Below are positions 10,071-51,552 of a DNA stretch of 51,552 bases, one piece after another. The DNA is from Planctomyces sp. SH-PL62 (GTDB lineage: Bacteria; Planctomycetota; Planctomycetia; Planctomycetales; Planctomycetaceae): the NCBI GenBank assembly GCA_945905295.1, contig CAMDPX010000020.1:1-51552 (forward strand), in the 5' to 3' direction. The translations under genes and the position numbers were made by a program. How positions within the stretch are numbered: position 1 is the stretch's first letter; each line of letters begins with the position of its first letter. The notes under the pieces are model-generated. The model had not been told where the DNA came from and did not search any database. It was given only the letters and a program-made list of their open reading frames with translations.

Positions 10071-10134
10071 GCCCGACGAATCGAAGGAGACGACGAATGA
10101 TCTCTCATTCGTCGTCTCCTTCGATTCGTCGGGC
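10071..10134. repeat. gacgaat-family palindrome, copy 1
   Basis: Perfect arms 10071-10100 and 10105-10134 with a 4-nt loop. Each arm contains gacgaat twice, offset by 17 nt. The same family recurs at 12333-12408 and 43137-43206. It sits between the dehydrogenase start and the amidohydrolase stop. Confidence 0.92.
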
Positions 10135-40755: not shown

Positions 40756-43056
40756 TCACGGATCGTTGGACTTGAATCGCCGCAGTCGCAAACTGTTGGT
40801 CACCACCAGCACGCTGCTGGCGGACATGGCGGCGGCGGCGAAGCCCGGTGGCAGGATGATTGCGCCGAATGCCGAAAGCAACCCGGTCGCCAGCGGGATC
40901 GAGACCACGTTGTATGCGAACGCGAAGAACAAGTTTTGACGGATGATGCTCAGCGTGCGCCGAGCTAATTCGATGGCGTGAGCCACCGCTCGCGGGTCGC
41001 TGCCGATGAGCGTCACGTCGGCGGCTTCGATGGCGATGTCGGCTCCGGCACCGATCGCGAAGCCGACATCGGCAGACGCCAGGGCGGGAGCGTCGTTGAC
41101 TCCGTCGCCGATCATGGCCACTCGGCGGCCGGTCGCTTGCAGTGAGCGGACGACGTCAGCCTTCTCCGTCGGCAAGCGCTCGGCCTCGATCAACGTGATG
41201 CCAAGTTTGTGTGCGACGTTCTTCACGACGGCCAAACGATCGCCGCTGACGAGACCGGTGGTGACATGCAGATGCCGCAGAGCCAGAGTCGCAGCGGACG
41301 CCGTCGACCGGACTCGGTCTTCAGCGGCAAGGACGCCGAGCACCTGCTGACTGCGCGCGACAAACAGCGGCGTGCGGCCGAGCGATTCGATGCGAGCGGA
41401 AAGGGGTCGGGAGTCTTTTTCAGGCCGCCGCGAATCGACGTCATTTGCAGTGCGACTTTCGGCGGCCTGAAAAAGACTCCCGACCCCGTCGCGTTCCAAC
41501 CATCGCCAATTTCCGAGCAGAACCGTCTCGCCACTGAGTTCGGCCTTCAATCCAAGGCCCGGTTCGGAATGCACATGGTCCGGTATCGCGTCGAGCGAAA
41601 CAGACTCCTGCTTCGCCAACGTCACGACCGCTCGCGCGAGCGGGTGATTCGAACCAGACGCGATCGTAGCCGCGACACGCAACAACTCGGCGCGAGTGGT
41701 TCCCTCGGACGGAATGACTTCGACGATCTCCGGGCGACCTTCGGTCAGCGTGCCGGTCTTGTCGAACAATGCGATTTGCACGGACGCCGTCCGTTCGAGC
41801 GCCGCTCCATCTTTGAAGAGCACACCGAGTTCCGCCCCTTTGCCCATCGCGACCATGACGGCAGTCGGAGTCGCCAAGCCCAGAGCACACGGGCACGCCA
41901 CCACCAACACCGCGACCGCGCGAGAGATGGCCGTGTGAATGTCGGCGTGAGTGAGCCACCAGATCAAAGTCAGGATCGCAATCGCCAGCACGATCGGCAC
42001 GAAGATGCCTGCCACGCGATCCGCCAGCCGTGCAATCGGAGCTTTGCTCCCTTGAGCATCTCGTACCAGAGCGGCGATGCGACGCAGAGCCATCTCTTCG
42101 CCAACACGTTCGGCTCGGAAACGAAAAATGCCCGATTGATTCACAGAACCGCCCAGCACTTGATCGCCCGGCTGTTTGCGAACCGGCAGCGGTTCTCCGG
42201 TGAAGCTGCTCTCGTCAATCTCAGTGACGCCGGCCAAGACGACACCGTCCACTGGGACACGCTCGCCCGCGCGAACTAACACGACATCGCCGACAACGAC
42301 TTGATCGACGGGGAGATCAACTTCATTTTCTTGGCTCAATAGGTCGTTCGACGAACGCAGCACGTGCGCCGTGGCCGATTGCAAATTCAGCAGACGGCCA
42401 ATGGCATCCGAGGCTTTGCGACGCGCTCGCGTTTCGAGCGTCCGGCCCAACCGCACGAAGACAACGATCAGCACGGCGGCGGTGAAGTCCGATCCGCACT
42501 GGCCGCTCGCGGCGGTGTGATCCAGGTGGCTCAATCCTGATTTCAGAAGCTCCCCAAACGACCACGCTCCGGCGAGGTACGCGGAACCGGCCCCCAAAGC
42601 GACCAGCACATCCATGTCGAGCGCGGCATGACGCAGTGACCGGGCCGCGTTGACGAAAAACTCGCGACCGCTTGTGAACAGCACCAACGTCGCGAGCAGC
42701 AGCATCCAAACCGGCGCGAGCGGCACCGACTCGACGAAGTACGCCAGCAGGACAACCGCCAGCGCCGGCGCGGCGGGCCGGGCGAGGTCACGAAAGCGAA
42801 ACGTGCCGGCGGCGTTGCCGGCCAGCGTGCTCGAATCGACCGCTTCCGGCCGCAGACTCGCGTGATAGCCGACCGCTTCAACGGCCGAGATTACCTCTGA
42901 CGGCGGATCATCGGCGTGTTGAATCCGAGCTTCGTTCGTCGCCAAGTTCACCGCCACGTCAGTCACGCCGGGCAGTTTGCGAATCGCGGACTCGACACGT
43001 GCGACACAACTGGCGCAGTGCATCCCCTCGATGCGATATCGCGTGGTGTGAGTCAT
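40756..43056 (-). CDS. copA: Copper-translocating P-type ATPase, carrying an in-frame palindrome
   Basis: 766-residue P1B ATPase, inner membrane, exports Cu(I). One N-terminal HMA domain with GMHCASC at 11-17. Membrane metal site CPC at 388-390, phosphorylation DKTGT at 432-436, the ATP-site histidine in SNHPLARA at 469-476 and GLGLKA at 500-505, and GDGVNDAPALA near 650. Residues about 523-552, in the nucleotide-binding domain, are encoded by the palindrome at 41403-41487. They add 27-29 residues not expected in the family, between GNWRWLERDGV and SARIESLGRTPLFVA. All core motifs survive, so the protein may still work. Confidence 0.92.
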   Translation of the reverse strand: MTHTTRYRIEGMHCASCVARVESAIRKLPGVTDVAVNLATNEARIQHADDPPSEVISAVEAVGYHASLRPEAVDSSTLAGNAAGTFRFRDLARPAAPALAVVLLAYFVESVPLAPVWMLLLATLVLFTSGREFFVNAARSLRHAALDMDVLVALGAGSAYLAGAWSFGELLKSGLSHLDHTAASGQCGSDFTAAVLIVVFVRLGRTLETRARRKASDAIGRLLNLQSATAHVLRSSNDLLSQENEVDLPVDQVVVGDVVLVRAGERVPVDGVVLAGVTEIDESSFTGEPLPVRKQPGDQVLGGSVNQSGIFRFRAERVGEEMALRRIAALVRDAQGSKAPIARLADRVAGIFVPIVLAIAILTLIWWLTHADIHTAISRAVAVLVVACPCALGLATPTAVMVAMGKGAELGVLFKDGAALERTASVQIALFDKTGTLTEGRPEIVEVIPSEGTTRAELLRVAATIASGSNHPLARAVVTLAKQESVSLDAIPDHVHSEPGLGLKAELSGETVLLGNWRWLERDGVGSLFQAAESRTANDVDSRRPEKDSRPLSARIESLGRTPLFVARSQQVLGVLAAEDRVRSTASAATLALRHLHVTTGLVSGDRLAVVKNVAHKLGITLIEAERLPTEKADVVRSLQATGRRVAMIGDGVNDAPALASADVGFAIGAGADIAIEAADVTLIGSDPRAVAHAIELARRTLSIIRQNLFFAFAYNVVSIPLATGLLSAFGAIILPPGFAAAAMSASSVLVVTNSLRLRRFKSNDP
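41403..41487. repeat. Palindrome inside the copper ATPase gene
   Basis: Perfect 27-nt arms at 41403-41429 and 41461-41487 with a 31-nt loop. Its length keeps the ATPase reading frame open with no stop. The right arm and six following bases are also found at 32-57. It encodes the peptide from GVGSLFQAAE to PEKDSRPL in the nucleotide-binding domain. Confidence 0.93.
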
Positions 43057-46970: not shown

Positions 46971-47026
46971 GCCTGACTCTCCGAGTCGGGACTTCGTCAA
47001 AAAACGCCCGACTCAGAGAGTCAGGC
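46971..47026. repeat. Palindrome downstream of the DUF58 gene
   Basis: Arms gcctgactctccgagtcggg (46971-46990) and its complement at 47007-47026, one mismatch, loop 16 nt including aaaaaa. Each arm has its own small hairpin, gactc and gagtc. It lies 21 bp beyond the DUF58 stop and could end that operon. Confidence 0.82.
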
Positions 47027-50293: not shown

Positions 50294-51552
50294 ATGGCTG
50301 CGATGCAAATTCAATGTCCTCATTGCCAGGTTGCCATTCAGCTTCTTGAAGCGCCGCCGGAAAGCGACGTCACCTGTCCGTCCTGCGGCAGCCAGATCAA
50401 CAGTGCCGAGCGGACTCAGACCGAGCGGCCCGTCGCACCGCCCGTGAGCGATGGCCGAGAAACAACTTTGCTTCCAGCCTCACCCAGCGGGCTGCCATTC
50501 TCTCTGCCTCCCGCTTCGCAAACAGCCTCTGCATCGGCAACCACACCGACCGCAATACAGCGACCGCCGATGATCGAAGCCTTCGGGCGTTTCCAACTGC
50601 TCAAACGGCTGGGAGGTGGAGCCTATGGCGAAGTCTTTTGGGCCTACGATCCGCAGTTGGACCGAGACGTGGCGATCAAGCGTCCGCATCAGCGGCGGTT
50701 GCCGCCGGAGTTGGCTGAACGGTTTGCTCGTGAAGCGCGATCGGCCGCGCAGCTCCAGCATCGGCACATTGTCGGCACGTATGAAGTGGGCGAGGTGGAC
50801 GGTCGGCCGTACATCGCCAGCGAGTACATCCTCGGCACCGACTTGGCCGCACGGGCGAATGCCCAGAAAGATCAGAACCGGTTGTTGCCGCCGCGAGACA
50901 TTGCTCAGCTCTGCGCTCAGGTGGCCGAGGCGTTGCACGTCGCTCACGAGGCGGGCATCGTGCATCGAGACTTGAAGCCCGCGAACATTCTGATCGGTAG
51001 GTTGGGACTCCGTCCCGACCCGTCTTCAACCCCCGACTCAAATCGTCACTCGAACACCGGTCGGGACGGAGTCCCAACCTACGACGCTCTCCACGCATAC
51101 CTGACCGACTTCGGCATGGCCAAGCGTGACACCGAGGCCGAGTTCGTGATGACGCAAGCGGGTCAACTGCTCGGTTCTCCCGCGTACATGTCGCCGGAGC
51201 AATGGCAAGACAGCCACGCCGTCGATCGCCGCACGGACTTATGGGCCGTGGGGGTGATTCTGTTCGAGCTGCTGACCGGCGAACGCCCCTTCCGCGCCGA
51301 GCGAGACAAGAGACTGCTCATGCAGCAGATTCTGAATGCGGACCCTCCGCCGCCGTCGCAGCTCAACAGTCAAGTCCCCGCCGACCTCGACACGCTCTGC
51401 CTGAAGTGCCTGGAGAAAGACCCGTCCCGCCGCTTCCCCACCGCCGCCGCCCTCGCCCAAGAACTCCACCGCTTCCTCCACGGCGAGCCAATCCACTCCC
51501 GCCCCATCACCCACTGGGAACGAGCCAGAAAGTGGTGCCAACGCAACCCAGC
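50294..51552 (+). CDS. Ser/Thr protein kinase with zinc ribbon, 5' part, carrying an in-frame palindrome
   Basis: Runs off the window end; 419 residues are seen. Start at 50294 (50303 also possible). N-terminal zinc ribbon CPHC at 8-11 and CPSC at 28-31, then a Pro/Ser/Thr linker to about 95. Kinase domain: glycine loop GGGAYGEV at 107-114, VAIK lysine 129, HRDLKPAN at 224-231, DFG at 272-274, and GSPAYMSPEQW. About 30 residues (235-264) between the catalytic loop and DFG come from the palindrome at 50997-51082. Related planctomycete kinases usually have only 8-12 residues there. The kinase core ends near 375; later residues (HGEPIHSRPITHWERARKW) suit the start of a C-terminal sensor or repeat region. 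Confidence 0.9.
   Translation, partial: MAAMQIQCPHCQVAIQLLEAPPESDVTCPSCGSQINSAERTQTERPVAPPVSDGRETTLLPASPSGLPFSLPPASQTASASATTPTAIQRPPMIEAFGRFQLLKRLGGGAYGEVFWAYDPQLDRDVAIKRPHQRRLPPELAERFAREARSAAQLQHRHIVGTYEVGEVDGRPYIASEYILGTDLAARANAQKDQNRLLPPRDIAQLCAQVAEALHVAHEAGIVHRDLKPANILIGRLGLRPDPSSTPDSNRHSNTGRDGVPTYDALHAYLTDFGMAKRDTEAEFVMTQAGQLLGSPAYMSPEQWQDSHAVDRRTDLWAVGVILFELLTGERPFRAERDKRLLMQQILNADPPPPSQLNSQVPADLDTLCLKCLEKDPSRRFPTAAALAQELHRFLHGEPIHSRPITHWERARKWCQRNP
50997..51082. repeat. Palindrome inside the kinase gene
   Basis: Perfect 24-nt arms at 50997-51020 and 51059-51082 with a 38-nt loop. Each arm itself can hairpin (gggac, tcc, gtccc). It lies in frame between codons for the catalytic loop and the DFG motif. 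The translation runs GRLGLRPDPS to TGRDGVPTYD with no stop. Confidence 0.93.

Follow-up and report, generated by a model that had tools for sequence, protein, structure and literature searches.

A GTAG REP doublet within a planctomycete kinase gene, and the differing palindromes found at such sites in related genomes

A Ser/Thr protein kinase gene at the right-hand end of the DNA analyzed here, a stretch of 51,552 nucleotides from Planctomyces sp. SH-PL62 (referred to below as the window), contains a long palindrome between two motifs of its catalytic core. The locus raises the question of what this palindrome is, how it came to lie there and how the protein accommodates it. The features concerned are the following.

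50294..51552, + strand: Ser/Thr protein kinase gene, recognized by its open reading frame, Pkinase match and invariant catalytic residues; cut by the window end
50963..50986, + strand: catalytic loop HRDLKPAN, residues 224-231 (sequence, alignment)
50997..51082, no strand assigned: whole element, a doublet of REPs whose GTAG heads face outward (REPIN, or head-head dimer)
50997..51020, + strand: left REP unit, GTA and then a hairpin whose 8-nt arms are GTTGGGAC/GTCCCGAC (with one G.T pair) and whose loop is TCC, as indicated by compensated stem variants
51021..51058, no strand assigned: 38-nt spacer, predicted to code for a hydrophilic linker (PSSTPDSNRHSNT region)
51059..51082, - strand: right REP unit, identical to the left one in inverted orientation
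51107..51115, + strand: DFG motif, residues 272-274, directly after strand beta8 (sequence, alignment, model)

The position and perfect complementarity of the palindrome, as given in the first-pass annotation, were borne out: the two arms (50997-51020 and 51059-51082) are 24 nt long, enclose 38 nt, and can be extended to 31 nt at 94%. The kinase frame is open from the ATG at 50294 to the window end, and the Pkinase match (Pfam) reached an E value of 3.7e-45. The PknB alignment flanks the insert, covering residues 98-235 and 270-409. Residues H224, D226, K228, N231, D272 and G274 were invariant among 23 aligned kinases, which agrees with the earlier statement that the insert is in frame, free of stops and harmless to the core motifs. 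The distance from ILI to DFG is 111 nt compared with 27 nt in short-loop kinases, a net gain of 84 nt or 28 residues. The 3' end of the gene lies outside the window; its own-genome paralogue on contig C219 continues to a stop. The N-terminus carries a CPHC...CPSC motif, which we take to be zinc-ribbon-like.

In the AlphaFold model of the kinase (mean pLDDT 79.3), strands were predicted at residues 232-236 and 266-270, and pLDDT fell below 50 at residues 239-246 and 248-263 between them. The two strands are presumably beta7 and beta8 of the usual kinase nomenclature, and the insert is, according to this model, a disordered beta7-beta8 surface loop. At the RNA level the element folded with -56.9 kcal/mol (z -10.1), and none of 200 shuffled sequences was as stable. 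No direct repeat of at least 10 nt, as a target-site duplication, was found around the element within 50950-51130.

The element had initially been left without a known identity, a view that had to be abandoned. According to the definition quoted in PMC3686654, a REP has the tetranucleotide GT(A/G)G at its 5' end and a palindrome behind it. With its GTAG tag and palindrome, its dispersed high copy number and its inverted doublets, the kinase element is a GTAG REP doublet, or REPIN. A genome-wide search with the arm at up to 3 mismatches yielded 273 units (130 forward, 143 reverse), and the reversed-pattern control yielded none. In a sample of 81 stretches (1.48 Mb, 17% of the genome), chosen mostly around REP hits so that this family (family 0) is over-represented, 189 units were arranged as 86 doublets and 17 single units, with spacers of 0-99 nt that were mostly unique; 85 of the 86 doublets had their heads outward. 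Positions 1-4 were G, T, A and G in 188, 189, 188 and 188 of the 189 units, respectively, and C preceded GTAG at 108 of 171 ends. The REP sequence of the family, written as a single strand, is GTAGGTTGGGACTCCGTCCCGACC. Stem positions 11/17 and 12/16 varied in equal numbers (10 + 10 and 13 + 13), and did so jointly in the listed elements, which indicates that each REP unit is a hairpin of its own. At least one REP match was present in all 12 genomes of the genus (own genome included) and in 8 of 158 other genomes of the family.

One trait implied by the old name did not hold, as 50 of 103 sampled elements lay inside called genes. An extragenic location belongs to the old REP name and not to the refined definition.

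A candidate for the mobilizing enzyme was found in the same genome, where the Pfam model Y1_Tnp matched 13 places. Two of these, on contigs C225 and C147, are genes for 271-aa proteins flanked, and near the 5' end overlapped, by REP units of the kinase element. Their Y1_Tnp scores were 26.4 and 25.9 bits (cut-off 23), and their scores with the NCBIfam model REP_Tyr_transpos were 57.9 and 51.5, below the curated cut-off of 80 bits. A RAYT match at E 1e-30 or better was obtained in 37 of 170 family genomes. Close copies in G005 and G007 carry the same REP; the copy of G059 (genus g45, 61% identical) is flanked by GTTGCGA-type stem variants and those of G118 and G120 (genus g60, 59-63% identical) by GTAGCC(C/T)GACTC units. 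Different RAYT copies are thus accompanied by different stems, so that RAYT sequence and REP stem change together. At E 1e-30, no RAYT match was obtained in the 89-92% complete drafts of G010, G006 and G002, despite their 100, 125 and 71 units, which speaks against a strict dependence of the units on a RAYT. Judged by sequence, the GTAG REPIN of the kinase probably has a RAYT as its cognate transposase. Within the window, an intergenic GTAGCCTGACTC-type palindrome (family 10), the type that flanks the RAYTs of G118 and G120, occupies 46971-47026.

Long palindromes in general are frequent in this genome. In the 1.48 Mb, 558 palindromes with arms of at least 16 nt were counted (3.8 per 10 kb), compared with 2 in a 468-kb control generated by an order-2 Markov model built from 25 of the 81 stretches. 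They formed 39 families with at least three members (475 elements) and 63 singletons. The first-pass annotation had suggested a general process from two intragenic cases in the window, and this was supported by the census, in which 151 palindromes lay inside called genes, 89 overlapped them and 318 were intergenic. When classified by the coding of their flanks, 96 of 114 same-strand cases were in frame, a stop being present in 6 of the 96. The kinase element and the only other palindrome inside a gene of the window do belong to different families, as had been stated; the latter, at 41403-41487, belongs to family 4 (24 sample members) and lies in frame in a minus-strand gene (40759-43056).

Among the 17 palindromes of the window, 14 are intergenic, 1 overlaps a gene and 2 lie inside genes. 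Certain families occurred only between genes in this sample, among them families 6, 13 and 14, with 0 of 19, 0 of 9 and 0 of 8 members inside genes. In the window, members of these three families start at 10071, 12333, 13495, 14590, 15547, 23334, 38600 and 43137. Located outside genes or at gene ends throughout the sample, these families differ in kind and are perhaps terminators. The idea that stop-poor arms decide which families enter genes was discarded, as no correlation was seen over 25 families (rho -0.17, P 0.41).

The 103 sampled elements of the kinase family comprised, besides the 50 inside called genes, 28 over a gene end, 23 intergenic ones and 2 at contig edges, in a sample of which 85% was called coding with a home-made codon model. 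When 150-nt flanks were evaluated, 39 elements had both flanks coding on one strand, and 36 of these were in frame (P 2e-14 against one third). The stop phase was used by only 1 of 34 in-frame doublets (P 2e-5). Of 4000 random spans, 1854 were flanked on both sides by sequence coding on one strand, so the elements avoid genes only mildly. In-frame insertion into open reading frames, a trait of the Rickettsia palindromic elements, is thus found here as well.

The composition of the spacers also depended on the reading frame. Hydrophobic residues made up 35 of 372 (9%) in the gene frame of intragenic spacers, 76 of 366 and 94 of 378 (21-25%) in the other two sense frames, 32-36% in the antisense frames, and 29% in spacers of elements not inside genes. 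This depletion is specific to the gene frame, so the spacers are probably translated as linkers. Gene-frame spacers contained no stops, which is partly so by construction, as the elements were picked inside open reading frames. Between shared sites, 44 of 58 codon changes in spacers were non-synonymous and the excess at third codon positions was weak (31, 22 and 34 changes at positions 1, 2 and 3), indicating loose coding constraint. The spacer thus appears to be a loose linker that is nevertheless read in the gene frame, and the kinase insert is probably translated, not removed.

All ten proteins considered from genes that carry such copies had Pfam matches, and they include two PSD1 proteins, a ketoacyl synthase, two further kinases, SecA and LeuRS. 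The LeuRS gene with its in-frame copy scored 957 bits with leuS_bact (cut-off 548) and was the sole strong LeuRS match in the genome; the editing-domain model of LeuRS matched just one further place, a valyl-tRNA synthetase, so the one strong LeuRS of the genome tolerates the insert. For SecA four matches were found, and the copy with the insert therefore need not be essential. At locus L381 (G000:C169), a ValRS gene contains three palindromes in an open frame (1981-2088, 199-282 and 1365-1449), two of them of the GTAGGTCAGCCTTTCCAGGCTGAC family.

Comparison with other kinases was possible for 16 of 22 sequences, the remaining 6 having one side missing or broken. The loop held the kinase-element REPIN in 4 of the 16, namely the window gene, its paralogue on C219, the orthologue in G007 (89% identical, with the insert in matching frame) and G007:C117, a distinct paralogue with an unrelated spacer. 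Another palindrome with a score of at least 12 was present in a further 4, with G000:C365 and G001:C565 sharing one family and G009:C22 and G010:C118 making up the rest. Three loops scored 8-11, and five were short (27 nt), in G001, G004 and G006 of the same genus and in G022 and G028 of the family. Several low-complexity loops occur at this position too, and the frame was kept in all the loops compared. The occurrence of several families at one loop indicates that this position took several insertions in kinase paralogues. On whether orthologues carry the same loop sequence, the evidence was mixed: five kinases have the short loop, while the G007 orthologue and the own-genome paralogue share the element with diverged spacers, which means that it is not private to the window gene.

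Two further kinase paralogues, G000:C350 (L331) and G000:C11 (L332), were 83-98% identical in part and either truncated or joined to other sequence, which suggests recombination among copies. The kinase orthologues G010:C116 and G002:C317 are cut by a contig end, and the match of G010:C116 ends just before the insert site. Some copies may thus be hidden where draft assemblies break at such elements.

The reading that we consider very probable is that the kinase insert is a non-autonomous mobile palindrome, a RAYT-associated REPIN that entered in frame and survived in an exposed loop. It would consist of two GTAG-headed REP units inverted around a spacer and would have been moved, probably, by the RAYT-type HUH/tyrosine transposase of the same genome. 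Entry into the beta7-beta8 loop would predate the split of the G000 and G007 lineages. Survival would have depended on a net insertion that was a multiple of three, on entry in either of the two phases in which the TAG of GTAG is not read as a stop, and on a solvent-exposed position, and the spacer would since have evolved as a hydrophilic linker. Mobilization by the RAYT, translation and unchanged kinase activity are the parts of this explanation that we infer.

Other explanations of the kinase insert were weighed against this one. The very stable hairpin within a coding sequence (-56.9 kcal/mol) could point to an insert that is cut from the mRNA like an intron or bypassed by the ribosome; such removal would leave the insert free of coding constraint and would not require freedom from stops, restriction to two phases, hydrophilicity in the host frame only or frame-keeping lengths, and since frame, stop phase and frame-specific composition all oppose it, we regard it as very unlikely. 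No more credible is a decaying pseudogene, to which the truncation of the gene by the window end and the damaged paralogues (C11 matching residues 3-167 only, C350 with stops between two matches) might be taken to point; it was set aside in view of the open frame and invariant catalytic residues, and the same insert stands in matching frame in the G007 orthologue. It is also conceivable that two 24-nt REPs (16 codons in total) were inserted separately around host sequence, so that the preserved frame is a matter of arithmetic and the spacer derives from the host. Spacer lengths of all modulo-3 classes occur with the frame kept all the same, and removal of both arms from the 44 listed doublets leaves an open, linker-like reading; attractive as the arithmetic is, it is contradicted by empty orthologues (C7, C37_15177, C89, C207, C12 and others), which hold 5-15 nt and lack the spacer, and the proposal is extremely improbable. 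Retention of the palindrome for a local DNA or RNA hairpin function, in regulation or mRNA stability, would fit the stronger conservation of arms than of host gene at shared sites. The arms, however, conform to the family consensus and not merely to each other across many unrelated genes and phases, and with homogenization as the simpler account this reading is unlikely.

For the wider question of what happens at such sites over time, 22 intragenic sites were sought in 11 congeners, 18 of which gave comparable loci and 4 none. A selection of the matches listed (30 + 60) supplied the loci, and removal of identical repeats within a genome reduced them from 99 to 97, a non-random sample in which 33 were empty (at most 20 nt), 12 carried the same family, 25 another palindrome, 7 a weak palindrome (score 9-11) and 20 were filled without a palindrome. 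A score of 12 served as the palindrome threshold; in 400 random stretches the 95% point was 8 and the 99% point 15. This threshold was reached in 35 of 99 segments centered on the sites, same family included, compared with 0 of 375 displaced segments from the same loci. Several of the alternative palindromes are of families with many copies in the genome that the window comes from, and others are not.

Same-element comparisons (14 at 9 sites, one with an own-genome paralogue) showed a graded pattern. Arms were identical at 662 of 672 positions (98.5%), a value favored by the definition of the same-family class (at most 5 mismatches per arm); arm mismatches were bimodal, though not purely. Spacers were identical at 313 of 428 positions (73%), and 100-nt flanks, computed with trimmed ends, at 2446 of 2809 (87%); one flank, at C260 (57 of 100), is misfitted or diverged. 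REP DNA is read in differing phases across genes, so the conserved thing is the DNA and not one peptide. Conservation of arms above both flanks and spacers suggests that arms are homogenized or exchanged in place; natural readings of the arm conservation would be homogenization with other copies or selection for recognition by the RAYT.

At site C37_14396, one of two sites in one gene where palindromes with different stems end at the same bases, seven congeneric loci carry full-length stems of type GTAGGTTGGGCAC, GTAGGTTGGCCG or GTAGGTCAGCC. Although the stems differ, the spacer of G001 has 68-70% identity with the spacers of G005 and G006, whereas unrelated pairs reached at most 65% in a null of 134 pairs, three of them from related genes. 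This comparison, from one site, is the main support for a putative exchange of arms in place. The same site has 28-nt in-frame palindromes in G011 (L245/L268) and G003 (L250) that look like REPINs with the center deleted.

Two accounts of the different-family sites were considered. Independent insertions alone, without any exchange in place, would explain them if few positions tolerate 20-30 extra residues, and we give this account an even chance. The hosting positions look like loops or linkers, at least one end differs in position in 18 of the 25 different-family cases, and the kinase loop holds unrelated families along with low-complexity loops. It accords less well with the other 7 of the 25, all from two sites in one gene, where 7 of 7 palindromes with different stems share both end points to the base, and with the spacer identities of G005/G006 and G001, which exceed that of the top unrelated pair (65%). 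Alternatively, and more tentatively, a REPIN site could be a lasting socket in which the active REP family rewrites the arms in place, all four half-stems together, through RAYT action or through conversion involving other copies; the spacer would remain and evolve with the host protein. If that were true, proteins of the genus would carry permanent docking loops for mobile elements.

REPs are usually regarded as extragenic. Here a REP/RAYT system appears to write protein linkers into many genes, among them those of a ValRS and of the LeuRS with its single match. At the same codons, congeners have either a short loop, an element of the same family or one of a different family. Because site states vary in this way, REP movement, target choice and arm homogenization become testable by comparative genomics, and the sites form a natural catalogue of insertion-tolerant loops. 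In the open-access literature, which leaves most subscription papers outside its scope, no paper was found that deals with this genus or with the turnover of REPs in genes of planctomycetes.

The closest precedent is the GTAG REPs of Di Nocera et al. 2013 (PMC3733652), which form head-head dimers, flank RAYT genes (REPtrons), include in-frame intragenic dimers of 20-30 residues and have planctomycetes among their hosts. GTAG tag, short palindrome, dimers, RAYT flanking and intragenic in-frame copies are shared with the kinase family. Those REPs are mostly intergenic with conserved spacers as a rule, whereas in our sample half are in genes (50/103) and spacers of 0-99 nt are mostly unique. That paper also describes different REPs near the same recB site in two Xanthomonas species; many shared sites with different families were found here, beyond that one case. 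The REPINs of Pseudomonas fluorescens (Bertels and Rainey 2011, PMC3116915) are likewise units of an inverted REP doublet with a spacer and RAYT association, but they are described as primarily extragenic (14 16-mers overlap genes) with a set end distance, in contrast to the variable spacers and common intragenic copies seen here.

TnpA-REP of E. coli and Stenotrophomonas requires GTAG for cleavage, and the S. maltophilia REP has an 8-bp stem and 3-nt loop, as here (PMC8266576); the present RAYT, by comparison, is known from sequence and scores below the NCBIfam cut-off. In the REP orthogroups of Nunvar et al. 2013 (PMC3686654), different REP classes also occupy a fixed locus, although the class change described there occurs at orthologous RAYT loci and here at ordinary protein-coding genes. 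Perfect inverted repeats in coding sequence are also known from nematomorph mitochondria (PMC6649704); those are longer, and no link to a transposase was seen in the portion concerned.

Rickettsia palindromic elements (RPE; Matsutani et al. 2013, PMC3767692) resemble the present case in being in frame in open reading frames and in the presence of different RPE groups at the same orthologous locus, for which two readings, hot spot or divergence, have been offered. RPE-4/6 carry a CGTC tag, and CGTC repeats apparently have no dedicated transposase according to the relevant part of PMC3733652, whereas the kinase family has a GTAG tag and RAYT genes. The kinase insert has known precedents in intragenic GTAG REPs and in the RPEs of Rickettsia; it was less expected that congeners would have another palindrome at the matching gene position in 25 of 97 orthologous loci.
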